DNA of 64,000 bases, taken from the NCBI RefSeq assembly GCF_002968295.1, contig NZ_CP134399.1:4898001-4962000 (forward strand), in the 5' to 3' direction. Positions 4,207 to 22,885 of the stretch are shown in pieces (within the stretch, counting starts at the first letter, position 1; each line of letters starts with the position of its first letter). This DNA is from Mycobacterium sp. ITM-2016-00317. Its GTDB lineage: Bacteria > Actinomycetota > Actinomycetes > Mycobacteriales > Mycobacteriaceae. The notes beneath the pieces were generated by a model that did not search any database, was not told the DNA's origin, and saw nothing but the letters and a program-made list of their open reading frames with translations. The translations under genes and the position numbers were made by a program.

Positions 4207-5387
4207 CTGGCGCACCAACCGTCCGGGACGAAAGCCTGCACCTGCAAGCCCGACGCCTGGTCACGCACGGTGACTTTGGCAGCCTGGATCGATGTGCACA
4301 GCATCGGCCGCGCATCAGGGGCCAGAACGACGTCCAGCGTCCCCTGGGCCGCCGAGGTCTCCGATGCTTCAATCCGGGTGGAGGCGGGCACCGGGCGCCC
4401 GGTGTCATCGACAACGGTGAAGGCGGCGTGCTCGAAGAGACGGACACCCTCCGGGCCGATGGCGTTCAGTGTGAAGGTCAGTTCTGTACCGGGCCGTGCA
4501 GTGACTTGCTCCGCGCTGATCACCGACGGCATCTGCTGCGCCGGGGACCACATGGCGCTCGTGAGCCGGATCGCCCCGAAGGTGGCCGCTACAACGGCGA
4601 TGGCCACCAGGATCTGCACGAGCTGGCGCTTCGTCCTGACCGCAGGCATCTTGGGCTTGGTCAGCGTCCCGAGGATCACGAACAGAGCGCCGCAGAGCAC
4701 GATCAGCCAGTCCAGCCGCCGGATGTGCTCGTAGTTCATGTCGAATGTCCAGACCCGCATCCACACCCAGATCGTGGTTTGCGCGCCCACGGCTCCGACG
4801 ATGGCCGGGATGAGAAGACGCATCCACAGCCGGGAGGGCCACCGCGACAGGCCGAGCGCGACACCGATCAATACGGCGGTGGTCACTGCCACGGTCGCGA
4901 TGAGCAGGCCGCCCGTGGTGACCTTGGCGCCCTCTGCCGACCGGTGGATTACGGGACCCAGCAGCGCGTACCAGACCAGCGTGGTCGCTATTCGAGCTCC
5001 CAGCCACGCCGGCTGGCCTGCACCGGTGCGTGCGACGAGCGCCGACAACCACAACCCGGGAACCAGCGAGAGCCCGGCGATACCGAACAGCAGTGCTGTC
5101 CAACCGACGGGATCCCCAGGTAGCGCGAACAGTAAGCGGTGTTCCGGTTGCATCCAATGTGCTGTCAGCAGGCATCCGATGCCGAACACCGACCACGCGA
5201 GCAGTCGCACTCTGTCTCTCGACTCTGGCGTCAATCGGTGTCGTGATTCCGTAACCCGTCGGCGCCGGCGGTGTCGCGCGCGCCGCTGGGTCCGACTCTC
5301 CGTGGCCAGGTCGTTCGACTGCTCGTCCTGTGAGGACTCCGCGAACGGACCCGCTGCCTCGCCGTCCGTCCGATAGGTCACGCTCAT
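4203..5387 (-). CDS. seven-TM membrane protein with C-terminal exported domain, unknown function
   Basis: 394 residues. An Arg/His/Gln-rich cytoplasmic N-terminus (residues ~1-60, including RHRRRRRVTESRHR) is followed by about seven hydrophobic segments, from LLAWSVFGIGCLLTAHWM to QLVQILVAIAVVAATFGAI. A ~140-residue soluble C-terminal domain then carries two cysteines (MLCTSIQ and GWCAR), possibly disulfide-bonded outside the membrane. I do not recognise the family. Its position inside a fully overlapping polysaccharide operon (ATGA overlaps at both ends) suggests a role in assembly, polymerisation or export. The start MSVTYRTDG is set by the upstream overlap. Confidence 0.7.
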   Translation of the reverse strand: MSVTYRTDGEAAGPFAESSQDEQSNDLATESRTQRRARHRRRRRVTESRHRLTPESRDRVRLLAWSVFGIGCLLTAHWMQPEHRLLFALPGDPVGWTALLFGIAGLSLVPGLWLSALVARTGAGQPAWLGARIATTLVWYALLGPVIHRSAEGAKVTTGGLLIATVAVTTAVLIGVALGLSRWPSRLWMRLLIPAIVGAVGAQTTIWVWMRVWTFDMNYEHIRRLDWLIVLCGALFVILGTLTKPKMPAVRTKRQLVQILVAIAVVAATFGAIRLTSAMWSPAQQMPSVISAEQVTARPGTELTFTLNAIGPEGVRLFEHAAFTVVDDTGRPVPASTRIEASETSAAQGTLDVVLAPDARPMLCTSIQAAKVTVRDQASGLQVQAFVPDGWCAR

Positions 5388-7384: not shown

Positions 7385-8532
7385 ACCCGACTCTCAATCT
7401 GACTGACCGCCGAAAGTGTCGCGAGTAACTGCTGCCCCACATCCGCGGAACGCGGCAACGCACATTCGGCCGCGCGCTGCGTGCGCGACCCGGGGGTCGA
7501 CAACATCCGAACGATTGCCTCGGCATAGAGCGAGGCCGCATCGGAGTCAGAGGCGGTGTGCGCACACAGGCGGACAGCGGCGCGCGGTCCCGCGCGGTCA
7601 GCGACCTCTCGATGAGCAGGAATGCCGCTCGCGACCACCGGTAGCCCTGACAGCAGTGCTTCGGCGAGTCCGATCCCGTACGCCTCCTGCTCACTTGCTG
7701 TGGCGTACAACGACGCCGACGCCCACCAATCCCCCAGCGTGTCCTCGTCAACGAAGCCGGTAAATGTCACTGTCCGGTCTGCGTTGAGCTGAGACGTGAG
7801 GGCGCGCAGCGAGCCGAGTGCGGCACCGTCTCCGATGACCACAAGATGCACGGGCTCGCCTTCGTCACGCAGGCGAGCGACCGCACGGATGAGAAGGTCG
7901 GTGCGCTTGTACGTTTCCTGCCGGGCAACGGTCAACACGACGCGTCCATCTGCGTACGGTCGGGGCAGGCCGAGTCTGGGTTTCGCAACGGCCGGCGGAA
8001 TGATCACGAGGTTGGCCGCCGACACCTGGCCGGCGAAGTCCCGGAGAACCAACCTCGCTTCAGCTTCCGTGTCGACGACTACACGTCGACTCGCCGCCAT
8101 CAGCCGACGTCCGGCAGGCCGATAGGCGAAGTGAAGCACATGACGTAGAGGGGTGTGTCCGACACCGTGGTAGTGCGGAGTGAAAACGACTGGCGCCGTA
8201 GCCCGCTCAGCGCCGAGCCATGCCAGCGGGGTGTGGTAACTGTGCAACCAGACGACCTCGAAGCGCCCGGGTGTGGCTGCGGCACGCGCCGCCGCAGGCG
8301 CAGATACATCGAAAAAATCTCCGAGCGGAAGCGGGTACCGCTCGATGGCGTATCCGTCGCACAACTCCCGCCGGGGCAGCGCCGCACTACGCGGCGCCTG
8401 GGTGATGACGGTGACCTCTGCGCCTTCCGCTGCCAGCGCGGCGGCCGCGGAAGCCACGTAGGTTTCCATGCCTCCCCGGAAAGGTGCGAAGCGCGGGACG
8501 AGAATGCCTACGCGCAATGCGGACTTCGTCAT
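7381..8532 (-). CDS. glycosyltransferase family 4-type (GT-B)
   Basis: 383 residues from ATG at 8532. The N-terminal motif LRVGILVPRFAPFRGGMETYV is the GT4 acceptor-side opening. Later come VVLTVARQETYKRTDLLIRA (phosphate-binding Lys region) and the donor-site stretch ATASEQEAYGIGLAEALLSG, whose second Glu belongs to the EX7E motif. A GTG at 8703 overlaps the upstream stop (GTGA), and starting there would add 57 Ser/Gly/Arg-rich residues of low-complexity look. I prefer 8532 because homology begins there, but coupling supports 8703, so the start is open. Cytoplasmic enzyme adding a hexose-type sugar to the growing lipid-linked repeat unit (inferred). Confidence 0.85.
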   Translation of the reverse strand: MTKSALRVGILVPRFAPFRGGMETYVASAAAALAAEGAEVTVITQAPRSAALPRRELCDGYAIERYPLPLGDFFDVSAPAAARAAATPGRFEVVWLHSYHTPLAWLGAERATAPVVFTPHYHGVGHTPLRHVLHFAYRPAGRRLMAASRRVVVDTEAEARLVLRDFAGQVSAANLVIIPPAVAKPRLGLPRPYADGRVVLTVARQETYKRTDLLIRAVARLRDEGEPVHLVVIGDGAALGSLRALTSQLNADRTVTFTGFVDEDTLGDWWASASLYATASEQEAYGIGLAEALLSGLPVVASGIPAHREVADRAGPRAAVRLCAHTASDSDAASLYAEAIVRMLSTPGSRTQRAAECALPRSADVGQQLLATLSAVSQIESRV

Positions 8533-8699
8533 GCCCACCGCGCCTTGTCGGCCCGGACGTTCCGTCTGCTCGGCGCTCGTACGGCTCGGCATGCAGCGCT
8601 CAGGGCTCAGCGCCGTCCAATCACGTCCACTAGGCATCGATCCACTCCCCCGGTCCAGCTTCTGAGTGACGGGCCCGCCTCCCCTAGCGCGCCCGTCGA

Positions 8700-9578
8700 T
8701 CACGCAGTGACCCCGACGCGCTCGCCGGCATGGACCTGTCTGCGCACCGACTGGACCAGTCGGCCACTGAGGCCGGAACGATGCCCGCGCAGCACGGTCC
8801 GCAGTACGCGGATGCCGTCCCGGATCGAATTCAGGTTGGACTTGCCCGCACGCCGCGGCAACTCAAGGCTCGGCACCTCGGCCACCCTCAGGCCCGCCTG
8901 CATCGCACGCACGACCATCTCGGCCTCGATCTCGAATCCGTTGGCAGACAGTGCGAGGACCTCCAGATAGCGACGGTGGAATCCGCAGAATCCGTAGCAG
9001 AGATCCGTCAGCTCAGCGTCGTACAGCGTATTGAAGACACCGAGCAGAAACTTGTTGCCCAGGCGCCGAAACCTCGTGATGTCCAAGGACCCACCGCCGG
9101 GTATGAAGCGGGAGCCCTTGACGAAGTCATAGCCGTTCGCCAGGAAGTGCAGATAGTGGGTGATCTCGTCGGGCGTCATGCTGCCGTCGGCGTCCATCAT
9201 CACGACGACGTCGCCCGTCGCTGCCAGAAAACCGGCCCGGAGCGCATCGCCCTTGCCGACACCTTCTTGCAAGACCACTTTGAGGTCCGGACGGCAGCTG
9301 CGGGCCGTTATCAGCGTCGCGTCTGTCGAGTTGCCATCGACCAGGATCACCTCGTCGACGTCGTCGGCGATCTGCTCCAGCACCCAGGCGATATTCCGAG
9401 CCTCGTTCTTCACAGGGATCACCAAGCTGACGGTCATAGCCTCGGCGTTTGGCACCCGGTCCCGCTTGTGCGCGCCCCCGACGTGGGTAACGGCGTCTGC
9501 GACGTAAACGCTCCGGTTTGCCATGTGCGTTGAAGTTGCCGCCCCGCCCTGTCCGTTATTGGAAAGATGCCCCGCCAT
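8700..9578 (-). CDS. glycosyltransferase family 2
   Basis: 292 residues. GT-A fold with MTVSLVIPVKNEARNI (residue ~48 onward), ILVDGNSTD and the DXD-type metal/nucleotide site VVMMDADGS, then FEIEAEMVVRA. This resembles dolichol-phosphate-mannose-synthase/GtrB-like enzymes, but no membrane segments follow the catalytic domain, so it is a soluble or peripheral enzyme. The ~47 residues before MTVSLV are not conserved-looking; an internal start at 9437 or 9524 is possible. It is the first gene of the minus-strand operon that runs off the left end of the window. Its promoter should lie in 9579-9900. Confidence 0.86.
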   Translation of the reverse strand: MAGHLSNNGQGGAATSTHMANRSVYVADAVTHVGGAHKRDRVPNAEAMTVSLVIPVKNEARNIAWVLEQIADDVDEVILVDGNSTDATLITARSCRPDLKVVLQEGVGKGDALRAGFLAATGDVVVMMDADGSMTPDEITHYLHFLANGYDFVKGSRFIPGGGSLDITRFRRLGNKFLLGVFNTLYDAELTDLCYGFCGFHRRYLEVLALSANGFEIEAEMVVRAMQAGLRVAEVPSLELPRRAGKSNLNSIRDGIRVLRTVLRGHRSGLSGRLVQSVRRQVHAGERVGVTA

Positions 9579-10127: not shown

Positions 10128-13100
10128 CTAGAACTGCACGCTGAGCAGCGACGTACCCGAACCCGTCCGCCCCGTCTCGTCCGTGACCGTCCAGGACAGG
10201 TTGCGAACCGCGCCGAAGCCGCTTTGGGACGCCGAGAACTTCACTGCTTCCATGGCGGCTTCGTACTGATTCTTCGTGGCGACGCCTGTCAGTGTCAGTG
10301 TGTGTGTGGACGCGTCGAACACCGCGGTGATCGGATTCCCCGAGATCGGTGTGAACATCAGCTTGTCGTTGCTGCTGGCGTTCGTGATCCGCACAGTCGC
10401 TCCGGCCATGTAGTCCGAATCCGTGTCGAAGATGCTCGCCGAAGCCAACGCTGTGGTGGCCGAGCCGTTACGCGTGTGCGAGGGCCACCCCGTCGTTGTC
10501 AGAGTGGGCGATACAGGGTTCCTGACCCCAGCCGTCGCCACCCCGTTGAGCAACCCACTGCTGCTGACTCCGGTCTCGTCGGATACCGAGATGGAGAAGC
10601 CCCGGATGAGCCCGGCTCCCTGGGTGGCCGAGAACGTCACCGCCTTGAGCGCTTCTTCGTACTGAGCCTTGGTCGCCGATCCCGACAGTGTCAATGTTCT
10701 GCTCCCGGCATCCCATTCCGCTGTGATCGGGTTGCCTGGCTGGATGTAACCGAGCCTATCCCCCGACTGGCCAAGGGATTCGATCGTCACCCGAGCTGAG
10801 GACAGGCGGTCAGAGTCGGCGTCGCTGATCGACGCGGAGGACAGCAATCGAGTCGGTGCCCCGCCGATTGTGTGGGTCGGCGCACCAACCGTCACGACCG
10901 ACGGCGGCAACGAGTACCGGACGTTGGCCGTCGCCACCCCGGGCAATGCGCTGTCCACATCGGTGTCGTCCGTCACCGTCACCGAGATACCGCGGACCAG
11001 TGCAGCTCCCCCGGTTGCGGAGAATGTCACAGCCTCGAGGGCCTGCTCGTACTGTGCCTTCGTCGCGATCCCGGACAGTGTCAATGTGCGACTCGTGGCA
11101 TTCCACGTCGCGGTGATCGGATTACCCGATATAGCAACAAACCCCAGTACGTCGCCGGACTGACCCAGGGAACTGATTCTGACGGTCGCCCGCGACATGT
11201 TGTCCGAGTCGGCGTCAGCGATGCTGACCGACGCCAGCAGCTTCACGGGTGCGGTCCCGATGGTGAAGGTGGGGGCGCCGATCGTCGTCACCGATGGCGG
11301 CAACCCCACCACGGTGACGATCGCAGATCCCGGCAGCACGCTTCTCACGTTTGTTTCGTCGATGACGTGGATCTGAATGCCCCGGGACACACCACCCTGA
11401 TCAGTCGTGAAGGTGACGGACTTGATGGCCTGCTCGTACTGAGCCTTGCTCGCTACACCCGACAACGTCAGAGTGCGCGTGGCCGCATCCCAGTTGGCCG
11501 TGATCGGGCTCCCCGACGGCACGACGTACCCGAGCACGTCGCCGGACTTGTACGCCGTCGCGACCACGATCGTCGCGCCAGAGAGGTTGTCCGAGTCCAG
11601 ATCACTGATATCGACCGACGACACCACCTTCACCGGCGCCCCACCCAACCGGAAGATCGCAGCGCCCAGCGCCGTCACCGAGGGCGGCAACCCCACCACC
11701 ATCACCGTGGCAGCCCCGGGCACCAGGCTCTCTTTGTTGGTGTCGTCGGTGACGTTGACCGAGATCGACCGTGACAGACCGCCCTCGGTTGCGGTGAAGG
11801 TGACCGCCTTGATCGCCGCCTCGTACTCGGCGATCGAGGCCACCCCCGACAGCGTCAACGTCCTCGTGGCCGCATCCCAACTCGCGGTGATCGGACTTCC
11901 TTCAACCGCGTTGTAGGCCAGCACGTCACCGGACTTATAGCCGACCGAACCGATGGTCAGCGTCGCCTTCGACAGACTCTCTGAGTCGGCGTCGGTGATC
12001 GTCACCGACGAGACCACCTTCACCGAAGTGCCGCCCAGCCGGAAGATCGGAGCACCCAGAACAGCCACCAACGGGGGCAGTCCGATCACGGTGACCACCG
12101 CAGCACCCGGGACCAGCGACTCCTTCTCGGTGTCATCAGTTACCGAGATCGAGATCCCCCGTGAGACTCCGCCCTCGGTCGCGGTGAAGGTGACCGCCTT
12201 GATCGCCGCCTCATACTCGGCAATCGAGGCCACACCCGAAAGCGTGAGCGTGCGGGTCGCGGCATCCCAGCTCGCCGTGATCGCGCTTCCCTCAACAGTG
12301 TTGTACGACAACACGTCGCCGGACCTATAGCCGGCCGCACCGATCGTCAGCGTCGCCTTCGACAGATTCTCCGAATCAACGTCGGTGATGTCCACCGACG
12401 ACACGACCTTCACCGCAGAGCCGCCCAGCCGGAAGATTGGCAGACCACCCACCACCACCACCGGCGGCAGACCGATAACCGTCACCACCGCAGCGCCCGG
12501 CCCCAACGACTCCTTGTCCGTGTCATCAACCACCGACACCGAGACCGAACGTGAGACTCCGCCCTCGGACGCCGAGAACGTCACCGCCTTAATCACCGCC
12601 TCATACTCGGCAATCGAGGCCACACCCGACAGCGTCAACGTCCGGGTCGCCGCATCCCACGACGCAGTGATCGCGCTGCCTTCACCCGCGGTGTAGGCGA
12701 GCACGTCGCCGGCCTTGTAGCCGGCCGGACCAATCGTCAACGTGGCCTTCGACAACTGATCGGAGTCTCCGTCGGTGATGTTCACCGACGAGACCACCTT
12801 CACCGGAGCGCCACCCAGCCGGAAGATCGGCAGACCGCCCACCACCACCATCGGCGGCAGACCGATCACCGTGACCACCGCAGCACCCGGAACCAACGAC
12901 TCCTTCTCCGTGTCATCGGTGACGCTGACCGAGACCGAACGCGACACTCCACCCTCGGACGCCGAGAAGGTCACCGCCTTAATCGCCGCCTCATACTCGG
13001 CAATCGAAGCCACACCCGACAACGTCAACGTCCGGGTCGCCGCATCCCAGCTCGCCGTAATCGCGCTTCCCTCAACAGTGTTGTAGGACAACACGTCACC

Positions 13101-16100
13101 GGACCTATAGCCGGCCGGACCAATCGTCAGGGTGGCCTTCGACAGGTTCTCCGAATCAACGTCGGTGATACTCACCGACGACACCACCTTCACCGGAGCG
13201 CCACCCAGCCGGAAGATCGGCAGACCACCCACCACCACCACCGGCGGCAGACCGATCACCGTCACCACCGCAGCACCCGGAACCAACGACTCCTTCTCCG
13301 TGTCATCGGTGACGCTGACCGAGACCGAACGCGACACTCCACCCTCGGACGCCGAGAAGGTCACCGCCTTAATCGCCGCCTCATACTCGGCAATCGAAGC
13401 CACACCCGACAACGTCAACGTCCGGGTCGCCGCATCCCAGCTCGCCGTAATCGCGCTTCCCTCAACAGTGTTGTAGGACAACACGTCACCGGACCTATAG
13501 CCGGCCGGACCAATCGTCAGGGTGGCCTTCGACAGGTTCTCCGAATCAACGTCGGTGATACTCACCGACGACACCACCTTCACCGGAGCGCCACCCAGCC
13601 GGAAGATCGGCAGACCACCCACCACCACCACCGGCGGCAGACCGATCACCGTCACCACCGCAGCACCCGGAACCAACGACTCCTTCTCCGTGTCATCGGT
13701 GACGCTGACCGAGACCGAACGCGACACTCCACCCTCGGACGCCGAGAAGGTCACCGCCTTAATCGCCGCCTCATACTCGGCAATCGAAGCCACACCCGAC
13801 AACGTCAACGTCCGGGTCGCCGCATCCCAGCTCGCCGTAATCGCGCTTCCCTCAACAGTGTTGTAGGACAACACGTCACCGGACCTATAGCCGGCCGGAC
13901 CAATCGTCAGGGTGGCCTTCGACAGGTTCTCCGAATCAACGTCGGTGATACTCACCGACGACACCACCTTCACCGGAGCGCCACCCAGCCGGAAGATCGG
14001 CAGACCACCCACCACCACCACCGGCGGCAGACCGATCACCGTCACCACCGCAGCACCCGGAACCAACGACTCCTTCTCCGTGTCATCGGTGACGCTGACC
14101 GAGACCGAACGCGACACTCCACCCTCGGACGCCGAGAAGGTCACCGCCTTAATCGCCGCCTCATACTCGGCAATCGAGGCCACACCCGAAAGCGTCAACG
14201 TCCGGGTCGCCGCATCCCAGCTCGCCGTGATCGCGCTGCCTTCACCCGCGGTGTAGGCGAGCACGTCGCCGGCCTTGTAGCCGGCCGGACCAATGGTCAG
14301 CGTGGCCTTCGACAACTGATCGGAATCAAGGTCGGTGATGTTCACCGACGAGACCACCTTCACCGGAGCGCCACCGAGCCGGAAGATCGGCAGACCACTC
14401 ACCACCACCATCGGGGGCAACCCAATGACGGTCACCACCGCAGCACCGGGAACCAGCGACTCCTTGTCCGTGTCATCGGTAACCGACACCGAGATCGAAC
14501 GAGAGACTCCGCCCTCGGACGCCGAGAAGGTGACCGCCTTGATCGCCGCCTCATACTCCACAATCGAGGCCACACCCGAAAGCGTCAACGTCCGCGTCGC
14601 CGCATCCCACGACGCAGTGATCGAACCGCCCTCGGCTGCGACATAACTGAGCACATCCCCCGCCCTATAGCCGGCCGAACCGATCGTCAACGTGGCCTTC
14701 GACAACTGATCGGAGTCTCCGTCGGTGATACTCACCGAGGAGACGACCTTCACCGGGGCGCCACCGAGTCGGAAGATCGGCAGACCACCCACCACCACCA
14801 CCGGCGGCAGACCGATCACCGTCACCACCGCAGCACCCGGAACCAGAGACTCCTTCTCCGTGTCATCAACCACCGACACCGAGACCGAGCGTGAGACTCC
14901 ACCCTCGGACGCCGAGAACGTGACCGCCTTAATCGCAGCCTCATACTCAGCAATCGAGGCCACACCCGACAACGTCAACGTCCCCGTCGCGGCATCCCAC
15001 GACGCGGTAATCGGGCTTCCCTCAACAGTGGTGTAGGACAGCACGTCACCGGACCTAAAGCCGGCCGGACCGATCCTCAGCGTGGCCTTCGACAACTGAT
15101 CGGAATCAACGTCGGTGATCGTCACCGACGACACCACCTTCACCGGAGCGCCACCCAGCCGGAAGATCGGCAGACCACCCACCACCACCACCGGCGGCAG
15201 ACCGATCACCGTGACCACCGCAGCACCCGGAACCAACGACTCCTTCTCGGTGTCATCAACCACCGACACCAAGATCGAACGCGAGACTCCACCCTCAGAC
15301 GCAGTGAACGTGACCGCCTTGATCGCCGCCTCATACTCGGCAATCGAGGCCACACCCGACAACGTCAACGTCCGCGTCGCCGCATCCCACGACGCAGTGA
15401 TCGAACCACCTTCGGCTGCAACATAACTAAGCACATCACCGGACTTATAGCCCAGCGAGCCGATCGTCAGGGTCGCTCTCGACAGGTTGTCCGAATCAAC
15501 ATCGGTGATACTCACCGAGGAGACGACCTTCACCGGGGCGCCACCGAGTCGGAAGATCGGTAGACCGCCCAGTGTCACTATCGGCGGCAAGCCGATCACG
15601 GTCACCACCGCAGCACCCGGGACCAGCGACTCTTTCTCGGTGTCATCAGTCACCGAAACCGAGATCGAGCGCGAGAGTCCACCCTCGGACGCTGAGAAGG
15701 TGACCGCTTTGATCGCCGCCTCGTACTCGGCAATCGAGGCCACACCCGACAACGTGAGCGTGCGGGTCGCGGCATCCCAACTGGCCGTGATCGGACTATC
15801 TGCCGTCGCGTTGTAGGCCAGCATGTCACCGGACTTGTAGCCGGCCGGACCAATCGTCAACGTGGCCTTGGACAGGTTCTCCGAATCAACGTCGGTGATA
15901 CTCACCGACGACACCACCTTCACCGGGCTACCGCCCAACCGGAAGATCGGCAGACCACCCACCACCACCACCGGCGGCAAGCCAATGACGGTCACCACCG
16001 CAGCACCCGGAACCAGAGACTCCTTCTCCGTGTCATCAACCACCGACACCAAGATCGAGCGTGAAACTCCACCCTCGGACGCGGTGAACGTGACCGCCTT

Positions 16101-19100
16101 GATCGCCGCCTCATACTCGGCAATCGAGGCCACACCCGACAACGTCAACGTCCGCGTCGCCGCATCCCAACTCGCAGTAATCGGGCTTCCCTCAACAGTG
16201 TTGTACGACAACACGTCGCCGGACCTATAGCCGGCCGCACCGATCGTCAGCGTCGCCTTCGACAGATTCTCCGAATCAACGTCGGTGATGCTGACCGACG
16301 ACACGACCTTCACCGGGCTACCGCCCAACCGGAAGATCGGCAGACCACCCACCACCACCACCGGCGGCAGACCGATCACCGTCACCACCGCAGCCCCAGG
16401 AACCAGAGACTCCTTGTCCGTATCATCGGTGACGCTGACCGAAATCGCCCGAGACACTCCACCCTCGGATGCCGAGAACGTCACCGCCTTGATCGCCGCC
16501 TCATACTCGGCAATCGAGGCCACACCCGACAACGTCAACGTCCGCGTCGTCGCATCCCAACTCGCAGTAATCGGGCTTCCCTCAACACTGTTGTAGGACA
16601 ACACGTCGCCGGACCTATAGTCCAGGGAACCAATAGTCAGGGTCGCTCTCGACAGATTCTCCGAATCAACGTCGGTGATGCTGACCGACGACACGACCTT
16701 CACCGGGCTACCGCCCAACCGGAAGATCGGCAGACCACCCACCACCACCACCGGCGGCAGACCGATCACCGTCACCACCGCAGCCCCAGGAACCAGAGAC
16801 TCCTTCTCCGTATCATCGGTGACGCTGACCGAAATCGCCCGAGACACTCCACCCTCGGATGCCGAGAACGTCACCGCCTTGATCGCCGCCTCATACTCGG
16901 CAATCGAGGCCACACCCGACAACGTCAACGTCCGCGTCGCCGCATCCCAGCTCGCAGTAATCGGGCTTCCCTCAACAGTGTTGTAGGACAACACGTCACT
17001 GGACCTATAGCCGACCGGACCAATGGTCAGGGTGGCCTTCGACAGATTCTCCGAATCAACGTCAGTGATGCTGACCGACGGCACGACCTTCACCGGGCTA
17101 CCGCCCAACCGGAAGATCGGCAGACCACCCACCACCACCACCGGCGGCAGACCGATCACCGTCACCACCGCAGCACCCGGAACCAGGCTCTGGGTGTCGG
17201 TGTCATCAACCACCGACACCGAGATCCCCCGCGGCAACCCCCCACCTTCAGTCGTGGAGAACGTCACCGCCTTGATCGCCGCCTCATACTCGGCAATCGA
17301 GGCCACACCAGACAACGTCAACGTCCCCGTCGCCGCATCCCACGACGCGGTGATCGGACTGCCGTCAGCGGCAACATAACTCAACACGTCGCCGGACTTG
17401 TACGCGGTGGCGATCACGACCGTGGCGCCGGAGAGGTTCTCCGAATCCCCATCGGTGATGCTCACCGAGGACGCAACTTTCACCGGCGCGCCGCCCAGTC
17501 GGAAGATCGGCAGACCACCCACCACCACCAACGGCGGCAAACCGACCACCGTCACCAGCGCAGCACCCGGAACCAAACTCTGCACGCCACTGTCATCGGT
17601 GACGGATATCGCCACCCCGCGAGGCAAACCACCCTTGGTCGCGGAGAACGTGACCGCCAAGAGTGCTTGTTCGTACTGCTGGGCCGTCGCTAGCCCCTCC
17701 AACGTCAGGGTCTTCGTCACCGCATCCCACGACGCGGTGATCGGGCTTCCGTCCGGGGCGACATAGTTCAGCAGGTCGCCGGTCTGTCCCGACGTGGCGA
17801 TTTTGATCGTGGCCTTGGAGATCCGGTCGGAGTCGGCATCGGCGATGACGGCTGAGGAGAGCAGTCTCACCGGTGAGTCCCCGAGCTTGAACACCGGCAG
17901 TCCCCCGGTGACCACCGTCGGCGGCAGCTGAACGATGGGGTTGATGGTGACCGGAACGGTCACGGTCACGTTGTCCTTCTGGGCAAGACCGAAAAGCCTT
18001 GCCACACCGTGCAAGAACTTCTGGAAGGACCCCAACGGGCCGGTGAGGTGTTCGGAGTCATCACGGATCACCACCTGGAACGTGTCCTGACGCGGTGTGC
18101 CGGTGACGATGGACGTCGGCGTGTAGATGAACTTGCCTGTGATCAGGTCCCGCACCACGAGCCCGTACTTCGGCTGGATTATCTCGTAGGTCAGCGGATC
18201 GCCGTTGGGATCGGTGGCGTTCAGATCGATGAAGAGCTGCCCGGGAAAGAGCTCTTCGATCGTGATCGGTCCGTAGATGGGAGTCTTGTTCGAGAACGTA
18301 TGGGTGATCTGTCGCCGGACCCATGCCAGCAACGCATCGAACCAGGGCGCTTGCGCGGGCGCATTCGGATTGGCGAACGGCGACACCACAGTCGACACCA
18401 ACGCAGAGACGATGTTGACCTTCTCGGCGCTCTGCTCCGGCGCAGCGGAAGCCTGTGCGACGGGTTCGACCACAGGCGCGACGACGTCGACAATCGCGAC
18501 ATCCCGCGACGGTTCTGACTCGTCGGATTGCGGTGACTCGATCACGTCGTCGTCGACGGCGGGTGGCTCGTCGTCGGGAGCGGTCGCCTCCTCGACGTCC
18601 CGGGCCGGGACCGAGTCGCCGGCTGAAGGCTGTTCCACCGGCGCATCGTCGACGTCGCCGTCTTCCGGTGCCTCCTCGTCCGTGCCCTCCGGCGGCCTTG
18701 TTGCGGAGTCGCCGGGTTCCAGATCCGTTCCGTCAGAGGGCTCTTCTTCGCCGTCCGGATCGATGGCGGTTTCTTCGTCCTCCGGGAGGTCCTCTCCGGC
18801 GTCGGAATCGGCGTCGTCTGCCGAGTCCTCGTCCGCATCGTCCTGCGGCGCGGGCGCCTGTAGCGGACCGTCGTCGGATTTTGGACCGGTCACCGATGTG
18901 TCCGGATCGCTGTCTGCATATGCCACACCGGCATTGGCCACCGCCAGCCCTACGCCCAACGACACAGCCAGCGCGCCGACGCGTCCGATGTGCAGAGCGT
19001 ATCGGGACGGCGCTCTCCGCGCGTGCTTGCCTGACCTGCCGGCAGTGGCAGAGCCCAGGAGTTCCTTGGCCTCCCAGAAGCCGCAGCCGACAGACGACTC

Positions 19101-19142
19101 GTCATTACGCTGGGCGCGGTGGCGGGCCGGGTTTGCACACAT
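10128..19142 (-). CDS. giant secreted cadherin-like repeat protein (20 repeats), putative surface adhesin/matrix protein
   Basis: 3004 residues. Start ATG (MCANPARHRAQR) follows a good RBS (GAAGGA, 7 nt before) and matches the start of the paralogue upstream. Order: basic N-region (1-51); signal-type hydrophobic stretch IGRVGALAVSLGVGLAVAN ending AYADS (~52-78); acidic Asp/Glu/Pro/Ser linker to ~235; a conserved module (~250-395) with APWFDALLAWVRRQI, TDPNGDPLTYEI and VVIRDDSEH; then 20 repeats of ~130 residues to the C-terminus (LLSVQF). Each repeat has S(V)SITDxDSxxLS, a possible Ca-binding DxDS, then SGDVLSY, ITASWDAATRTLTLSG, YEAAIKAVTF and a terminal VxDDT strand. No LPXTG motif, TM segment or lipobox was seen, so anchoring is unexplained. 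Confidence 0.9.
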   Translation of the reverse strand: MCANPARHRAQRNDESSVGCGFWEAKELLGSATAGRSGKHARRAPSRYALHIGRVGALAVSLGVGLAVANAGVAYADSDPDTSVTGPKSDDGPLQAPAPQDDADEDSADDADSDAGEDLPEDEETAIDPDGEEEPSDGTDLEPGDSATRPPEGTDEEAPEDGDVDDAPVEQPSAGDSVPARDVEEATAPDDEPPAVDDDVIESPQSDESEPSRDVAIVDVVAPVVEPVAQASAAPEQSAEKVNIVSALVSTVVSPFANPNAPAQAPWFDALLAWVRRQITHTFSNKTPIYGPITIEELFPGQLFIDLNATDPNGDPLTYEIIQPKYGLVVRDLITGKFIYTPTSIVTGTPRQDTFQVVIRDDSEHLTGPLGSFQKFLHGVARLFGLAQKDNVTVTVPVTINPIVQLPPTVVTGGLPVFKLGDSPVRLLSSAVIADADSDRISKATIKIATSGQTGDLLNYVAPDGSPITASWDAVTKTLTLEGLATAQQYEQALLAVTFSATKGGLPRGVAISVTDDSGVQSLVPGAALVTVVGLPPLVVVGGLPIFRLGGAPVKVASSVSITDGDSENLSGATVVIATAYKSGDVLSYVAADGSPITASWDAATGTLTLSGVASIAEYEAAIKAVTFSTTEGGGLPRGISVSVVDDTDTQSLVPGAAVVTVIGLPPVVVVGGLPIFRLGGSPVKVVPSVSITDVDSENLSKATLTIGPVGYRSSDVLSYNTVEGSPITASWDAATRTLTLSGVASIAEYEAAIKAVTFSASEGGVSRAISVSVTDDTEKESLVPGAAVVTVIGLPPVVVVGGLPIFRLGGSPVKVVSSVSITDVDSENLSRATLTIGSLDYRSGDVLSYNSVEGSPITASWDATTRTLTLSGVASIAEYEAAIKAVTFSASEGGVSRAISVSVTDDTDKESLVPGAAVVTVIGLPPVVVVGGLPIFRLGGSPVKVVSSVSITDVDSENLSKATLTIGAAGYRSGDVLSYNTVEGSPITASWDAATRTLTLSGVASIAEYEAAIKAVTFTASEGGVSRSILVSVVDDTEKESLVPGAAVVTVIGLPPVVVVGGLPIFRLGGSPVKVVSSVSITDVDSENLSKATLTIGPAGYKSGDMLAYNATADSPITASWDAATRTLTLSGVASIAEYEAAIKAVTFSASEGGLSRSISVSVTDDTEKESLVPGAAVVTVIGLPPIVTLGGLPIFRLGGAPVKVVSSVSITDVDSDNLSRATLTIGSLGYKSGDVLSYVAAEGGSITASWDAATRTLTLSGVASIAEYEAAIKAVTFTASEGGVSRSILVSVVDDTEKESLVPGAAVVTVIGLPPVVVVGGLPIFRLGGAPVKVVSSVTITDVDSDQLSKATLRIGPAGFRSGDVLSYTTVEGSPITASWDAATGTLTLSGVASIAEYEAAIKAVTFSASEGGVSRSVSVSVVDDTEKESLVPGAAVVTVIGLPPVVVVGGLPIFRLGGAPVKVVSSVSITDGDSDQLSKATLTIGSAGYRAGDVLSYVAAEGGSITASWDAATRTLTLSGVASIVEYEAAIKAVTFSASEGGVSRSISVSVTDDTDKESLVPGAAVVTVIGLPPMVVVSGLPIFRLGGAPVKVVSSVNITDLDSDQLSKATLTIGPAGYKAGDVLAYTAGEGSAITASWDAATRTLTLSGVASIAEYEAAIKAVTFSASEGGVSRSVSVSVTDDTEKESLVPGAAVVTVIGLPPVVVVGGLPIFRLGGAPVKVVSSVSITDVDSENLSKATLTIGPAGYRSGDVLSYNTVEGSAITASWDAATRTLTLSGVASIAEYEAAIKAVTFSASEGGVSRSVSVSVTDDTEKESLVPGAAVVTVIGLPPVVVVGGLPIFRLGGAPVKVVSSVSITDVDSENLSKATLTIGPAGYRSGDVLSYNTVEGSAITASWDAATRTLTLSGVASIAEYEAAIKAVTFSASEGGVSRSVSVSVTDDTEKESLVPGAAVVTVIGLPPVVVVGGLPIFRLGGAPVKVVSSVSITDVDSENLSKATLTIGPAGYRSGDVLSYNTVEGSAITASWDAATRTLTLSGVASIAEYEAAIKAVTFSASEGGVSRSVSVSVTDDTEKESLVPGAAVVTVIGLPPMVVVGGLPIFRLGGAPVKVVSSVNITDGDSDQLSKATLTIGPAGYKAGDVLAYTAGEGSAITASWDAATRTLTLSGVASIAEYEAVIKAVTFSASEGGVSRSVSVSVVDDTDKESLGPGAAVVTVIGLPPVVVVGGLPIFRLGGSAVKVVSSVDITDVDSENLSKATLTIGAAGYRSGDVLSYNTVEGSAITASWDAATRTLTLSGVASIAEYEAAIKAVTFTATEGGVSRGISISVTDDTEKESLVPGAAVVTVIGLPPLVAVLGAPIFRLGGTSVKVVSSVTITDADSESLSKATLTIGSVGYKSGDVLAYNAVEGSPITASWDAATRTLTLSGVASIAEYEAAIKAVTFTATEGGLSRSISVNVTDDTNKESLVPGAATVMVVGLPPSVTALGAAIFRLGGAPVKVVSSVDISDLDSDNLSGATIVVATAYKSGDVLGYVVPSGSPITANWDAATRTLTLSGVASKAQYEQAIKSVTFTTDQGGVSRGIQIHVIDETNVRSVLPGSAIVTVVGLPPSVTTIGAPTFTIGTAPVKLLASVSIADADSDNMSRATVRISSLGQSGDVLGFVAISGNPITATWNATSRTLTLSGIATKAQYEQALEAVTFSATGGAALVRGISVTVTDDTDVDSALPGVATANVRYSLPPSVVTVGAPTHTIGGAPTRLLSSASISDADSDRLSSARVTIESLGQSGDRLGYIQPGNPITAEWDAGSRTLTLSGSATKAQYEEALKAVTFSATQGAGLIRGFSISVSDETGVSSSGLLNGVATAGVRNPVSPTLTTTGWPSHTRNGSATTALASASIFDTDSDYMAGATVRITNASSNDKLMFTPISGNPITAVFDASTHTLTLTGVATKNQYEAAMEAVKFSASQSGFGAVRNLSWTVTDETGRTGSGTSLLSVQF
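10131..17918 (-). repeat. 20 tandem ~390-bp repeats encoding cadherin-like domains
   Basis: Units are counted by the recurring IGLPP boundary. The outer units (1, 17-20) are divergent, and units 2-16 are close copies of each other. The N-terminal units follow VQLPP, and the last unit ends at the stop codon. The 390-bp period keeps the frame open on the opposite strand as well, creating misleading antisense reading frames of about 100-120 codons in each unit. Confidence 0.93.
12874..14177 (-). repeat. 3.3 perfectly identical tandem copies of the 390-bp unit
   Basis: Bases 12874-13787 equal 13264-14177 without a single mismatch when shifted by 390. Mismatches appear just outside (12873 and 12851 on the left, 14178 versus 13788 on the right). 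These are units 11-13 plus part of a neighbour. Perfect identity at silent positions means very recent duplication or gene conversion. Confidence 0.95.
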
Positions 19143-19245
19143 ACGCAGTCCTTCATCGTGCATCGAGTTCGATCCCTTTGCAGGGACACGGTTCCGGAGG
19201 CCTCGAGGGCCCTGTGCGCACCGAGAGTGCGCAAGGTGGGCAGGA

Positions 19246-19269
19246 CCCGGCGGCCCATGGGCCGCCGGG
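19246..19269. terminator. 24-bp perfect GC palindrome between the two giant genes, possible terminator
   Basis: CCCGGCGGCCCA followed by TGGGCCGCCGGG forms a perfect 12-bp inverted repeat without a loop spacer, lying 23 bp past the stop of the upstream giant gene (minus strand). It lacks a U-run. It may attenuate or end transcription before the second giant gene. A second small repeat, TGCGCA-7-TGCGCA, lies at 19215-19233. Confidence 0.5.
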
Positions 19270-19291
19270 CGTGAGCCGGGAATCTAGATGA

Positions 19292-22200
19292 TCACCACAC
19301 CGACAGAGTCAGCAATCCTGCCGCACTCTGGACACCGGCGTCGTCGGTCACCCTGATCGCCAAAGTCCTTGTGGTCCAACCACCGCTGGTCGCGGTGAAC
19401 GTGATCGCTTTCAGTGCCGCTTCGTACTGCGACTTGGTGGCGGTGCCCGACAGGGTCAACTTCCTGCTGCCCGCGTCATAGGTGGCGGTGATCGGCACGC
19501 CCGCCAGTCCGCTGAACTGCAGGACGTCTCCGGATCTGCCGAACAGGGTCACCTCCACGGTGGCGCGTGTCAGGTAGTCCGAGTCTGCGTCGATGATGTC
19601 CACCGCGGCGACAGGTTGCACCGGTTGCTTGCCGATGGTGTACGACCGGCCGCCGAACGGGGTGACCAGGGGCGGTAGCGGGTTCCTGGCGCCGGCGAGA
19701 ACGATGCCGGATGTCAGTGTCTGTACGCCGGTGTCGTCGCTGACGTCGACGGTGATGGTGCGGAGGATGCCCACCCCCTGGGTGGCCGAGAACGTCACCG
19801 CCTTGATCGCTTCCTCATACTGGGCCTTGGTCGCGACACCGGTGAGGGTCAGGGTCCGGGTACCGGAATCCCACACTGCGGTGACCGGATTGCCGGCCGG
19901 TGCGACGTAACCGAGAGCGTCCCCGTTCTGACCGAGGAGCGCGATCCTCAGTACCGCTTTGGAGAGATATGCCGAGTCGCCGTCAGCGATGTCCACGGCG
20001 GAGACGAGCTTCACCGGTGCCGAGCCAACAGTGTAGGTCGGCGACCCGACCGGTGTGACCAGCGGCGGCAGCGACCATCGCACCCCGGCCAGCACCACGC
20101 CAGAGGTCAGGCTCTGCACCCCGGTGTCATCGGTGACATCGATGGTGATGGTCCGCACGATTCCGGCGCCTTGGGTGGCCGAGAACGTCACGGCTTTGAG
20201 CGCTTCCTCGTACTGCGCCTTGGTCGCGACACCCGAGAGCGTCAGCGTCCGTGCGGCCGCATTCCACGACCCGGTGACCGGACTGCCGGTGGGTGCAACA
20301 TAGCTCAGCAGGTCGCCGGACTGCCCCAGCAGCGCGATCCTGAGCACCGCTTCGGACAGGTACTGCGAGTCGCCGTCGGCGATGTCCACTGCGGCCACGA
20401 CCTTGACCGGGGTCGAGCCGAGCGTATGGGTGGGCGCTCCCACCGGGGTCACCAACGGCGGCAATTGTGTTGCCATCCAGACGCCGACGGTCACGAATCC
20501 GGGCGTGATGTTCTCGACCCCGTCGGCGTCGGTGGCCGAGATCGTCACACCACGCACCAGCAGCGCGCCCTGGGTCGCCGAGAACGTGACCGCCTTGAGC
20601 GCTTCCTCGTACTGCGCTTTGGTGGCCACCCCGTTCAGGGTCAGCGTCCTGGTTTCGGCATCCCAGGACCCGGTGATCGGATTACCCGATGGCGCAACAT
20701 AATCGAGCACGTCGCCGGACTGCGCCAGGGTGGCGATCTGGAGCACCAGCTTCGACAACGAAGACGAGTCCCCATCGGCGATGTCCACCGCCGAAACCAG
20801 CTTGACCGGAGCTCCGCCGAGCGTATAGCCCAGTCCGGGGAGAGGGGTCACCAATGGCGGCAACTGAATTGCGGGCAGGACCGCGACGGTCACGAATCCC
20901 GGCGTGAAGTTCTCCACGCCGTCGGCGTCGGTGGCCGAGATCGTCACACCACGCACCAGCAGCGCGCCCTGGGTCGCCGAGAACGTGACCGCCTTGAGCG
21001 CTTCCTCGTACTGGGCCTTGGTGGCCACCCCGTACAGGGTCAGCGTCTTGGTCTCGGCATCCCAGGAACCGGTGATCGGATTATCCGAGGGCGCAACATA
21101 ACCGAGTACGTCGCCGGACTGCGCCAGCGTGGCGATCTGGAGCACCAGCTTCGACAACGAAGACGAGTCGCCGTCGGCGATGTCCACCGCTGATACCAGC
21201 TTGACCGGATCGTCTCCGATCGTGTGGCCGAGGCCAGGCAGCGCAGTCACCAACGGCGGCAACTTGATCTCCGGCCACACACCGACCGTCACGAAGCCGG
21301 GCGCAAGGTTGTCCACACCGTGTTCGTCGGTCGCCGAGAGCGTCACACCGCGCACCAGCAGCGCGCCCTGGGTCGCCGAGAACGTGATCGCCTCGATCGC
21401 CTGCTTGTACTGTGCCTTCGTCGCCACCCCGCTGAGGGTCAAGGTCTTCGTCTGCGCGTCCCACGCCGCGGTGATCGGATTGCCGTCGATGGCCGCGTAC
21501 TCGAGCAGGTCGCCATCCTGGGCCAGAGTCGCGATCTTGATGATCACCTCGGCGAGATGATCCGAGTCCCCGTCGGCGACAAGGACCGACGAGACCAGCT
21601 TCACCGCGTCGCCGCCGAGCGTGTAGCCCAGACCTGGCACCGGTGTGAGCAGCGGCGGCAGCTGGATCACCGGGTCGACGTACACCGGCACGGTGACGGT
21701 GACATTGTCCGCCTGGGCGAGGCCGAACATCCGGGCGACATTGTGCAGCAGACTCTGGATGCTTCCCAGGGCGCCGGTCAGGTGGTCGGAATCATCGCGG
21801 ATCACCACCTGGAAGGTGTCCACGAGCGGATCACCGGTGACGAGTTGGTAAGGCGTGTAGATGAACTGACCGGTGAGGACGTCCCGGAACACCCAGCCGT
21901 GCTCGGGCTGAATGATGTCGTAGGTCAGCGGGTCACCGTTCGGATCGGTGGCGTGCAAGTCGATGAGCAGTTGACCGGTGAAGATCTGCTCGGTCGTGAT
22001 CGGTCCGTAGATCGGTGTCTTGTTGAAAAAAGTGTGGTTGATCTGGCGGCGGACCCACGCCAACAGCGCGTCCAGCCACGGAGCGCGGGCGGGGGTGTCC
22101 GTATCGGCAAACGGCGCGACCACGTTGGAGACGACCGCGGTGAACAGGCCTACCGAATCGAGGCTCTCCTGCTCAGCAGCCGACTCCGGCGCCACCGCTC

Positions 22201-22885
22201 CGACGCCTGTCAGCGGCACCACCTCGGTCACCGCTCCTGCGGACTCCTCCGCATCCGACGGCTCGTCGGCATCGGCGCCCGGGACCGTCTCGGCGAGATC
22301 ATCTGTGGGCTCGGCCTCCCGGGGAGGTGCAGACGATGGCGCCGGTGACGTCGACGCCGGAGTGTCGTCGGACTCGGCCGGATCACCCGCGTGATCGGCA
22401 CCGGGCTCCTCGCCCGGCGGCTCACTCTCTGACTCGGGGTCGAGATCGGTAGTCTCGTCGTCCCCGGCACCTTCCCCGTCCTCGTCGTCGGCGTCCTCGT
22501 CGATCTCGGCGTCGGCATCGTCCTCGATGTCATCGTCACCTGCGTCGGCGGCGTCCTTTTCGCCATCCTGCGCGGACTCGTCGGCGCCTGGAACGGAGGG
22601 GCCCGGGGCCGCGGAGTCGTTGCCCGGGCTCGACACCGATGACTCGGTGTTGCTGTCCGCGTAGGCCACGCCGGACGAGGAGTTCGCGACAGCCAGACCC
22701 ACGCCGAGCGAGACGGCGAGGGCGCCGACCCTGCCGATGTGGCTTGAGTAGGTCGTGGTCTTGCGTGCATGCCTGGCGGACCGTCCCCGCCCCGCGTCGC
22801 TCAGGTCCTCGGTGACCCAGAAGTTCGACTCGGAACCCGAGGCGCCCCTTCGTGCGGCGCGGTGACGGGCTGGGGCTGCACACAT
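19292..22885 (-). CDS. secreted cadherin-like repeat protein (6 repeats), paralogue of the 3004-residue protein
   Basis: 1197 residues from ATG at 22885, 8 nt after a strong GGAGG. The N-terminus (MCAAPARHRAAR) and signal region IGRVGALAVSLGVGLAVAN are almost the same as in the neighbour. An acidic Asp/Glu/Ser/Pro linker follows (~78-290). Next comes the shared module with APWLDALLAWVRRQI, TDPNGDPLTYDI, VIRDDSDH and NVTVTVPVYVDP. Six repeats of ~131 residues follow (LVTPxxGxxYTxGxxPVKLVSAVDIADGDS...), each with a Ca-type DGDS/DxDS site, ending LTLSVW. No cell-wall anchor was seen. The repeats resemble units 1 and 18-20 of the neighbour, suggesting that these are the older repeat type. Confidence 0.9.
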   Translation of the reverse strand: MCAAPARHRAARRGASGSESNFWVTEDLSDAGRGRSARHARKTTTYSSHIGRVGALAVSLGVGLAVANSSSGVAYADSNTESSVSSPGNDSAAPGPSVPGADESAQDGEKDAADAGDDDIEDDADAEIDEDADDEDGEGAGDDETTDLDPESESEPPGEEPGADHAGDPAESDDTPASTSPAPSSAPPREAEPTDDLAETVPGADADEPSDAEESAGAVTEVVPLTGVGAVAPESAAEQESLDSVGLFTAVVSNVVAPFADTDTPARAPWLDALLAWVRRQINHTFFNKTPIYGPITTEQIFTGQLLIDLHATDPNGDPLTYDIIQPEHGWVFRDVLTGQFIYTPYQLVTGDPLVDTFQVVIRDDSDHLTGALGSIQSLLHNVARMFGLAQADNVTVTVPVYVDPVIQLPPLLTPVPGLGYTLGGDAVKLVSSVLVADGDSDHLAEVIIKIATLAQDGDLLEYAAIDGNPITAAWDAQTKTLTLSGVATKAQYKQAIEAITFSATQGALLVRGVTLSATDEHGVDNLAPGFVTVGVWPEIKLPPLVTALPGLGHTIGDDPVKLVSAVDIADGDSSSLSKLVLQIATLAQSGDVLGYVAPSDNPITGSWDAETKTLTLYGVATKAQYEEALKAVTFSATQGALLVRGVTISATDADGVENFTPGFVTVAVLPAIQLPPLVTPLPGLGYTLGGAPVKLVSAVDIADGDSSSLSKLVLQIATLAQSGDVLDYVAPSGNPITGSWDAETRTLTLNGVATKAQYEEALKAVTFSATQGALLVRGVTISATDADGVENITPGFVTVGVWMATQLPPLVTPVGAPTHTLGSTPVKVVAAVDIADGDSQYLSEAVLRIALLGQSGDLLSYVAPTGSPVTGSWNAAARTLTLSGVATKAQYEEALKAVTFSATQGAGIVRTITIDVTDDTGVQSLTSGVVLAGVRWSLPPLVTPVGSPTYTVGSAPVKLVSAVDIADGDSAYLSKAVLRIALLGQNGDALGYVAPAGNPVTAVWDSGTRTLTLTGVATKAQYEEAIKAVTFSATQGVGILRTITVDVSDDTGVQTLTSGIVLAGARNPLPPLVTPFGGRSYTIGKQPVQPVAAVDIIDADSDYLTRATVEVTLFGRSGDVLQFSGLAGVPITATYDAGSRKLTLSGTATKSQYEAALKAITFTATSGGWTTRTLAIRVTDDAGVQSAAGLLTLSVW
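19295..21652 (-). repeat. 6 tandem ~393-bp repeats encoding cadherin-like domains
   Basis: Six units delimited by LPPLVTP-type boundaries. Each keeps TKAQYEEALKAVTFSATQG near its end. They are more divergent from one another than the central units of the neighbouring gene, apart from close pairs such as units 2 and 3. Confidence 0.9.

Follow-up and report, generated by a model that had tools for sequence, protein, structure and literature searches.

Two large open reading frames stand side by side on the reverse strand of the window, the whole 64,000-nucleotide stretch of DNA analyzed here, which comes from the soil-type mycobacterium Mycobacterium sp. ITM-2016-00317 (Table 1). The first-pass annotation had described them as secreted paralogues sharing a signal region, an acidic linker, and a conserved module, and both reading frames and all three shared parts were confirmed. 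The internal MCANPARHR (about position 19142) is more likely to be the true start of the giant protein, P0001, because it matches the start of the neighboring short paralogue, P0002. Comparison of the short paralogue with its orthologue in a related genome (G037) gave a dN/dS of 0.168, indicating purifying selection.

Table 1. Positions of the repeat proteins, their parts, and the neighboring gene cluster in the window
Feature	Position	Strand	Remark
Exopolysaccharide cluster, right part	309..9578	(-)	GT2, GT4, two membrane proteins, Wzx/MOP-type flippase, GT4, polysaccharide deacetylase
Giant repeat protein P0001	10128..19163	(-)	3011 aa; signal, acidic linker, N-module, 20 repeats
Giant-protein tandem repeats, 20 beta-sandwich units	10131..17930	(-)	First-repeat left edge approximate; fold from short-protein repeat model
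Giant-protein repeat units 11-13	12876..14045	(-)	3 x 390 bp, identical DNA
Giant-protein N-module, helix ..LLAWVRRQITHTF.NKTP plus Ig/Big_9-like domain	17946..18374	(-)	Big_9 below cut-off
Giant-protein acidic linker, Asp/Glu/Pro/Ala	18468..18914	(-)	Net charge -50 over residues 86-232
Giant-protein signal core GRVGALAVSLGVGLAVANAGVAYA	18915..18986	(-)	AxA candidate ends at residue 83
Short paralogue P0002	19292..22885	(-)	1197 aa; layout as in giant protein, 6 repeats
Short-protein tandem repeats, 6 units	19295..21664	(-)	First-repeat left edge approximate
Short-protein N-module	21677..22108	(-)	
Short-protein acidic linker	22181..22657	(-)	Net charge -49 over residues 78-230
Short-protein signal core, same as giant's	22658..22735	(-)	AxA candidate ends at residue 76

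Repeat arrays and their relatives

Twenty DxDS repeats in register, spaced 129 to 132 residues apart, were counted in P0001 and six, spaced 131 to 133 residues apart, in P0002; an HMM built on single repeats returned the same numbers, so that the original count was confirmed by both routes. DxDS occurs 23 times in P0001 (3 of the 23 outside the repeat register), compared with a mean of 1.4 and a maximum of 7 in 2000 shuffles. The motif count in P0002 is 6, compared with a mean of 0.6 after shuffling; shuffled versions also attain 6, and the regular spacing is therefore the stronger evidence there. Tandem Repeats Finder reported a 390-bp array of 15.3 copies, and units 11 to 13 of the giant gene are evidently a recent tandem duplication. 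Repeat number ranges from 3 to 38 among related frames that are complete at both ends. Hydrophobic 19-mers (Kyte-Doolittle, 2.26) lie at the repeat-repeat junctions of P0001; the matching place in the short-protein repeat model is a strand and loop. Across the genus sample of 148 genomes, for which profile-search matches per genome are lower bounds, repeats were found in 18 genomes and no repeat match in the other 130, so the function is dispensable.

Among the matches listed for a 632-aa repeat query (120 of 236), all E values were below 1e-80, and proteins named DUF4347, swmB, and tandem-95 were included. Homologues with non-mycobacterial names were 28 to 36% identical to the query, mostly with more than 90% of it covered. 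These homologues bear out the likeness to large repeat proteins of proteobacteria drawn in the first-pass annotation, without RTX repeats here: nonapeptide repeats (PF00353) were not listed in P0001 or P0002 at E values up to 1. Giant proteins named DUF4347, RTX, tandem-95, or swmB, from Proteobacteria, Magnetococcales, a cyanobacterium, and other phyla, carry homologous repeats and are similarly huge; the window proteins differ from them in lacking a DUF4347 or RTX match and in having a mycobacterial signal and N-module instead. As regards a C-terminal type I secretion signal of the RTX kind, the observations are that both proteins stop at the last repeat and have an N-terminal signal, recognized by motif. 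SwmB of Synechococcus itself, a protein of 10,791 aa that excerpts of PMC4949707 link to swimming, is set beside the repeat proteins by description, and homology rests on the swmB-named proteins. In excerpts of PMC12153261, BapP of Pseudoalteromonas tunicata has tandem domains with DxD motifs and predicted calcium sites, is discussed among RTX adhesins, and has domain classes matching Calx-beta and Big_9. Like BapP as portrayed in those excerpts, the window proteins have tandem beta-sandwich domains with DxD motifs; unlike it, none of their repeats reaches a fitting Pfam cut-off.

No cadherin Pfam family was listed for P0001 or P0002. Big_9 scored 22.3 and 20.7 bits in the two proteins (cut-off, 23.6) and was confined to the N-module, and a few of 58 repeat pairs of relatives matched Cadherin_3, Cadherin_4, or Big_9 weakly (best E value, 5.5e-5). 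The stretches passing on their own were just Big_9 and MAP_0585 in P0001, and Big_9, MAP_0585, and a weak L-asparaginase match in P0002. DUF4959, LptD_N, and TraY were rejected as Pfam/NCBIfam identities, being sums of weak matches across the repeats. When solved structures were searched by sequence, P0002 gave no match; a repeat profile gave six rows, of which five were protocadherins (E values, 0.12 to 0.45).

Structure prediction, proposed together with the earlier comparison, confidently folded the short-protein repeat pair as two beta-sandwiches (mean pLDDT, 95.9). Cadherins and streptococcal and staphylococcal adhesins were among the top Foldseek matches of this repeat model. The best structural matches of a single repeat included cohesin modules and a glycosyltransferase domain, so that cadherin may not be the closest fold; and, because both models gave low query-normalized TM-scores (0.17 to 0.39) and a large rmsd in Foldseek, the claim is limited to single-domain resemblance. 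A cohesin-like scaffold, docking partner proteins on each repeat, appears extremely improbable. Alignment A2 supplied 115 single repeats, in which four columns are acidic, with Asp/Glu at 88%, 91%, 100%, and 99%. These conserved positions are compatible with calcium binding without proving it, the designation "Ca-type" having been deduced from acidic motifs.

Protein ends and the shared N-terminus

The signals that define LPXTG wall proteins (MSCRAMM) and lipoproteins are absent from both window proteins: sequence searches found neither LPXTG nor a lipobox cysteine in either, and both are without a C-terminal membrane segment, in agreement with the original description. The last repeat lies 3 residues (P0001) and 0 residues (P0002) from the C-terminus, and, of the 25 repeat frames whose 3' end is complete, 24 stop 0 to 6 residues past the last repeat. 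One frame (G102) runs on for 705 residues beyond it and another (G114) for 997, the latter being cut by a contig end; the blunt end is therefore not universal in the family. A relative, P0070, carries the source name SdrC, although the window proteins are without LPXTG.

At the level of sequence, the N-terminus, in which a mycobacterial signal and an acidic linker precede a helix-plus-Ig module, is more unusual than the repeats. The signal peptide is near-invariant (GRVGALAVxLGVG, then AxA), and the motif with an AxA candidate was present in 26 of the 27 repeat frames having a 5' end; the sole frame without the motif abuts another frame. An Arg pair occurs in some signal n-regions (HARR in the giant protein) and is absent from others, and Tat export may be compatible with the n-regions that carry it. 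The unusually conserved core, the absence of any other anchor, and a linker of about 150 residues, which by arithmetic could span the wall if extended, would all suit an uncleaved signal that acts as an inner-membrane signal-anchor, with the acidic linker crossing the wall and the repeats outside. The AxA candidates argue against such an arrangement, since by eye their distance from the core is nearly constant and an acidic stretch follows them, and we regard it as distinctly unlikely.

The same signal was found on at least 14 large proteins of this genome (E <= 1e-3), both repeat proteins counted, whose mature parts are unrelated, and within the genome sample it is nearly confined to the genus. 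A Pfam scan of 10 of the 12 other signal bearers (all except the protein at 1889196 and L184) identified a GH1 enzyme, an M13 peptidase, two S15-type hydrolases, two glucose/sorbosone dehydrogenases, a phosphodiesterase, a DUF4185 protein, a beta-propeller with Ig domains, and an Ig/cadherin-type protein. Mean pairwise identity, computed for 13 of the 14 proteins (all except the one at 1889196), was 59% over the signal core and 14% over the linker (78 pairs each), compared with 9% just upstream of the core (36 pairs); in these 13, the 120 residues after the signal had a net charge of -27 to -44 or -46. Gene fusions that passed on a single ancestral N-terminus could account for part of the signal conservation. 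The MAP_0585 family (NCBIfam NF043060) overlaps weakly with signal and linker (E values, 0.18 and 0.56), at 11.8 and 10.2 bits, far below the curated cut-off of 170. In the open-access literature (titles, and abstracts among the matches listed), no description of these proteins or of the signal was found.

The helix-plus-Ig module is kept between linker and repeats (alignment of 24). In its model, residues 1 to 39 are under pLDDT 50 and the helix part is poorly modeled; its profile gave four rows against solved structures, three of them protocadherin-15 (best E value, 0.026). This conserved module has no obvious use for mere secretion, which argues against the two proteins being freely released, without anchoring, as a public glue, decoy, or matrix component. 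Free release would agree with the lack of an anchor and also with the blunt C-terminus, and the enzymes bearing the same signal and linker could act in the medium; nevertheless, we consider it unlikely.

The neighboring exopolysaccharide cluster

The exopolysaccharide cluster lies directly downstream of the giant gene, on the same strand and 550 bp away. It had been called an eight-gene operon; the polysaccharide genes are present, but the window ends within the operon, which extends further to the left. The island that carries it measures about 27 kb and separates the giant gene from an XPB-type helicase gene. In the close relative M. vaccae, the same operon lies beside the same giant gene, which rules out an island unique to this genome. 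A search of positions 9300 to 10400 found no terminator-like site, an uninformative absence since 0.8 would be expected by shuffling. The terminator scan gave two terminator-like sites (1.8 expected), and the promoter scan gave one promoter-like site, at 10298 to 10269 within the giant gene (0.1 expected); neither scan was informative.

The earlier reading was that the operon next to them makes a polysaccharide which the repeat proteins bind and retain as a capsule or matrix. The position of the operon and the matching neighborhood in M. vaccae favor it, as does RapA2 of Rhizobium, a precedent for cadherin-like domains binding acidic exopolysaccharide according to a title cited in PMC12153261. 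Against it, the giant and XPB-type genes adjoin closely in five relatives, their ends being separated by 16 to 22 bp in G037, G140, and G085 and by larger gaps in G055 (about 0.35 kb) and G019 (about 1.1 kb) (G003, with its helicase gene in two pieces and no fadB match, was left out of the distances). Relatives of the 666-aa operon protein (E <= 1e-3) were found in 2 of the 18 repeat-bearing genomes and in 13 of the 130 other genus genomes (Fisher p = 1.0). One of the two is the genome from which the window comes, and the second is G055, whose protein is a 32% relative lying 1.9 Mb from the repeats; the other 16 are without one. Among 12 named repeat-bearing genomes, the 666-aa protein was present in one, M. 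vaccae. Furthermore, the eight operon frames had no match in the regions fetched around the repeat genes of 17 other genomes, some of these regions being short contigs. Co-occurrence thus failed beside the repeats of those 17 genomes and held in M. vaccae, and the dedicated matrix-protein and polysaccharide system proposed in the first-pass annotation is not supported, co-occurrence being limited to one clade. The cluster is a lineage-specific neighbor that we do not judge to be part of the repeat-protein system, and binding of its product by the repeats seems quite improbable.

Export and presentation of the repeat proteins

We consider it fairly likely that both proteins are rod-like adhesins, exported and presented by means of the mycobacterial N-terminus they have in common. 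Export would use their unusually fixed signal peptide, most likely through the general Sec pathway, with cleavage, most likely by signal peptidase I, at the conserved AxA. In the mature chain, a linker of about 150 residues, highly acidic and probably unfolded, would come first, followed by the mycobacterial helix-plus-Ig module and then by a rod built of 6 or 20 beta-sandwich repeats, which may be stiffened by calcium and would have a blunt end where the last repeat stops. Its role may be that of an adhesin or spacer, either extracellular or at the surface, with the repeat number setting its reach, and this number, and hence the reach, would be altered by tandem duplication. Retention, if any, would be through the shared N-terminal part rather than the repeats.

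YSIRK-G/S signal peptides have a sequence-specific core that recurs on numerous large proteins of Gram-positive bacteria, at the surface or secreted and otherwise unrelated, and in staphylococci YSIRK signals provide a comparable delivery to one site. The mycobacterial signal differs in motif and phylum and is without an LPXTG partner. By analogy, the GRVGALAVxLGVG signal might be read by a dedicated factor and mark a genus-specific display route, by which large secreted proteins that carry both this signal and an acidic linker would be delivered to one envelope site or layer, the giant repeat proteins being the longest clients; we offer this as a tentative possibility.

To our knowledge, giant adhesins are not generally credited to mycobacteria, and the display of large proteins on or beyond the mycobacterial outer layer is poorly known. 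Judged by sequence, the repeats are of a widespread bacterial kind, and the conserved signal with its acidic linker is a mycobacterial arrangement common to other large secreted proteins. If the signal is a sorting signal, mycobacterial surface display would become testable with one short sequence and a reporter.

Repeat genes in the window and across the genus

The genome is a single contig of 6.06 Mb, of which the window occupies positions 4898001-4962000. Both minus-strand repeat frames reported in the first-pass annotation were present as described. The giant protein contains 20 repeats at a regular spacing of 129-132 aa, and the short paralogue contains 6, regularly spaced at 131-133 aa. 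The DxDS motif was found 23 times in the giant protein, far above chance (shuffled mean, 1.4; maximum, 7; 2000 shuffles). The six occurrences in the short protein (shuffled mean, 0.6) equal the shuffle maximum of 6; regular spacing is therefore the stronger evidence for its repeats. The identity of units 11 to 13 of the giant gene shows that the array was altered lately by tandem duplication. Comparison of the short gene with its orthologue in genome G037 (dN, 0.134; dS, 0.799; ratio, 0.168) shows that it is under purifying selection.

Features of the two repeat genes (window coordinates)
Feature	Position	Strand	Description
Giant repeat protein	10128-19163	-	3011 aa
Short paralogue	19292-22885	-	1197 aa
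Repeat units 11, 12, 13 of the giant gene	12876-14045		identical, 390 bp each
Signal core, giant protein	18915-18986		motif GRVGALAVxLGVG
Signal core, short protein	22658-22735		motif GRVGALAVxLGVG

Regions fetched from 18 genomes, own genome included, yielded 29 frames with repeats, whose number ranges from 2, in a frame truncated by the end of its contig, to 38, in the longest frame (5296 aa, G140). Nearly all frames with a complete 3' end (24/25) stop 0-6 residues past the last repeat, although one of the 24 (G096) could represent one half of a disrupted gene. The frame that departs from this is in G102 (loci L064/L065) and has 705 non-repeat residues C-terminal to the repeats; a frame in G114 (L066), cut by the contig end, has at least 997 after the last repeat. 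In G096 (contig C1, ~1714700-1727300), two repeat frames, 3023 and 1165 aa long (L043 and L044), abut at one base, and since the second lacks an N-terminus, the pair has the look of a single broken gene or of an error in the assembly.

A long and a short repeat gene share one locus in G000 (the own genome), G019, G085, and G140, and the same pairing is likely in G037 and G142, where the genes lie at contig ends. A luciferase-like monooxygenase gene is found near the repeat genes in 12 of the 18 genomes. Relatives by name include M. vaccae, M. austroafricanum, M. frederiksbergense, M. parafortuitum, M. iranicum, M. kyogaense, and M. neoaurum; the search for them gave 52 loci, the last four of which match weakly and belong to an archaeon and Phycisphaerae. 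The repeats, for which homology, fold class, and conserved acidic positions were established, form a new branch within a known kind. Among the papers listed in the searches of open literature, none was found that describes such repeats joined to the mycobacterial signal, linker, and module.

The polysaccharide cluster as a neighbor

The repeat genes are flanked upstream by a fadB-like gene (715 aa) and, beyond the polysaccharide cluster, by an XPB-type helicase gene (549 aa), both assigned to protein families. These two genes share a contig in 51 of 60 sampled genus genomes; the distance between them is 1.1 to 20.9 kb in all but one of the 51, G000, where it is 46.4 kb. The ends of the giant and helicase genes are separated by 16-22 bp in G037, G140, and G085, by ~0.35 kb in G055, by ~1.1 kb in G019, and by ~27.5 kb in G000, where the polysaccharide cluster fills most of the gap. 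In G034 the repeat genes are elsewhere (repeats at 0.79 Mb, helicase gene at 1.69 Mb). A second fadB-like copy (G000:C1:5000191-5002335) shares 83% identity with its counterpart at window 29028-31175.

Inside the window, the cluster encodes a GT2 and two GT4 glycosyltransferases, two membrane-type proteins that lack a family assignment, a Wzx/MOP-kind flippase, and a deacetylase. Left of the window it continues with a UDP-sugar dehydrogenase, a GH113 glycosidase, an acyltransferase, an SGNH protein, an AMP-binding enzyme, and a PLP decarboxylase, and a beta-helix protein that carries a Big_9 domain lies on the opposite strand at its far left end. The whole looks like a real exopolysaccharide cluster, as had been proposed, and extends beyond the eight genes first described. 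The beta-helix (pectate-lyase/epimerase-like) protein (L038:2998-5613; genome 4880998-4883613) has the same N-module as the repeat proteins and a different signal core.

The first-pass annotation had linked the repeat proteins and this operon in one matrix or capsule system, a proposal that the co-occurrence check did not bear out. At E <= 1e-3, 15 of 148 genus genomes contain relatives of the cluster's 666-aa membrane protein; at E below 1e-60, 3 do. They occur in 2 of 18 repeat-bearing genomes (G000 and G055, the latter relative being 32% identical and 1.9 Mb from the repeats) versus 13 of 130 repeat-less ones (closest, G066, 57%), so that repeats and relatives are distributed independently of each other (Fisher p = 1.0, whether or not the own genome is counted). 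A tblastn search of the eight operon frames against the regions fetched around the repeat genes in the 17 other genomes, some of these regions being short contigs, gave no match. Among 12 further named repeat-bearing genomes, one of them from the same strain as G037, the 666-aa protein was found in one, M. vaccae NBRC 14118 (91%). There the cluster is collinear with that of G000 (~88% DNA identity), and a repeat gene matching the giant gene at 77% comes after it, so the arrangement of cluster and giant gene predates this species. The cluster thus does poorly as a partner of the repeats. Its place beside them is limited, in the sample, to this species and M. vaccae; it is a lineage-specific island that has possibly, but not necessarily, acquired a functional connection to the repeats.

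A conserved N-terminus

The N-terminus is the least ordinary part of the repeat proteins. Of the repeat frames whose 5' part is present, 27 in all, 26 carry the core GR[VI]GALA[VI]xLG[VI]G followed by AxA candidates; the remaining one directly adjoins another repeat frame and lacks its own N-terminus. A profile of this signal matched 14 proteins of the own genome at E <= 1e-3, including both window proteins (others at L173, L174, and L176-L184). A domain scan of 10 of the other 12 gave mature parts unrelated to each other: a GH1 protein, an M13 peptidase, two S15-type hydrolases, two glucose/sorbosone dehydrogenases, a phosphodiesterase, a DUF4185 protein, a beta-propeller with Ig domains, and an Ig/cadherin-type protein. 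Across 13 of the 14 proteins, mean pairwise identity is 59% in the core and 14% in the linker after it; it is 9% in the 25 residues ahead of the core, which 36 of 78 pairs reach. The 120 residues after the core are strongly acidic in 13/13 proteins (net -27 to -46). Signal cores are usually conserved for hydrophobicity and not for sequence, and this pattern therefore asks for an explanation.

In the order sample of 121 genomes, six genus members (own included) had at least 14, 24, 24, 7, 23, and 2 signal matches, and four other genus members had none. Outside the genus, three genomes showed a single marginal match apiece (E, 4e-5 to 5e-4); the core is thus nearly confined to the genus in this sample. 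None of the papers listed in the searches of open literature was found to describe its recurrence on many large mycobacterial proteins. In repeat-less genomes, a signal-bearing frame of ~590 aa immediately adjoins the XPB-type gene at this locus (G004, L185:311-2056), and also near it in G053 (C34:161154); the G004 frame has a weak likeness to an acyltransferase PE model (29 bits; cut-off, 580).

The N-module, a helix plus an Ig/Big_9-like domain, gave 17 matches in the own genome, nine of them long, and eight of the nine include the helix part, whose structure is poorly modelled. Among the matches listed for the order sample, those that begin within model positions 1-15 come exclusively from the own family (two genera), and other families match the Ig part.

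The layout itself, beginning with the conserved signal and AxA, is plain from the sequences and suggests how the proteins may work. Export would proceed by the conserved signal, most likely through Sec, Tat export being possible, with cleavage at AxA; a signal-anchor in place of a cleaved signal is possible too. An acidic, unfolded linker would follow the cleavage site, and the module after the linker may hold the protein to the envelope. No known anchor was found, in agreement with the first-pass annotation, and free release is possible. The repeat rod comes last; its length would set its reach, calcium would stiffen it, and it would act where cells touch one another or other surfaces, as proposed for related proteins.
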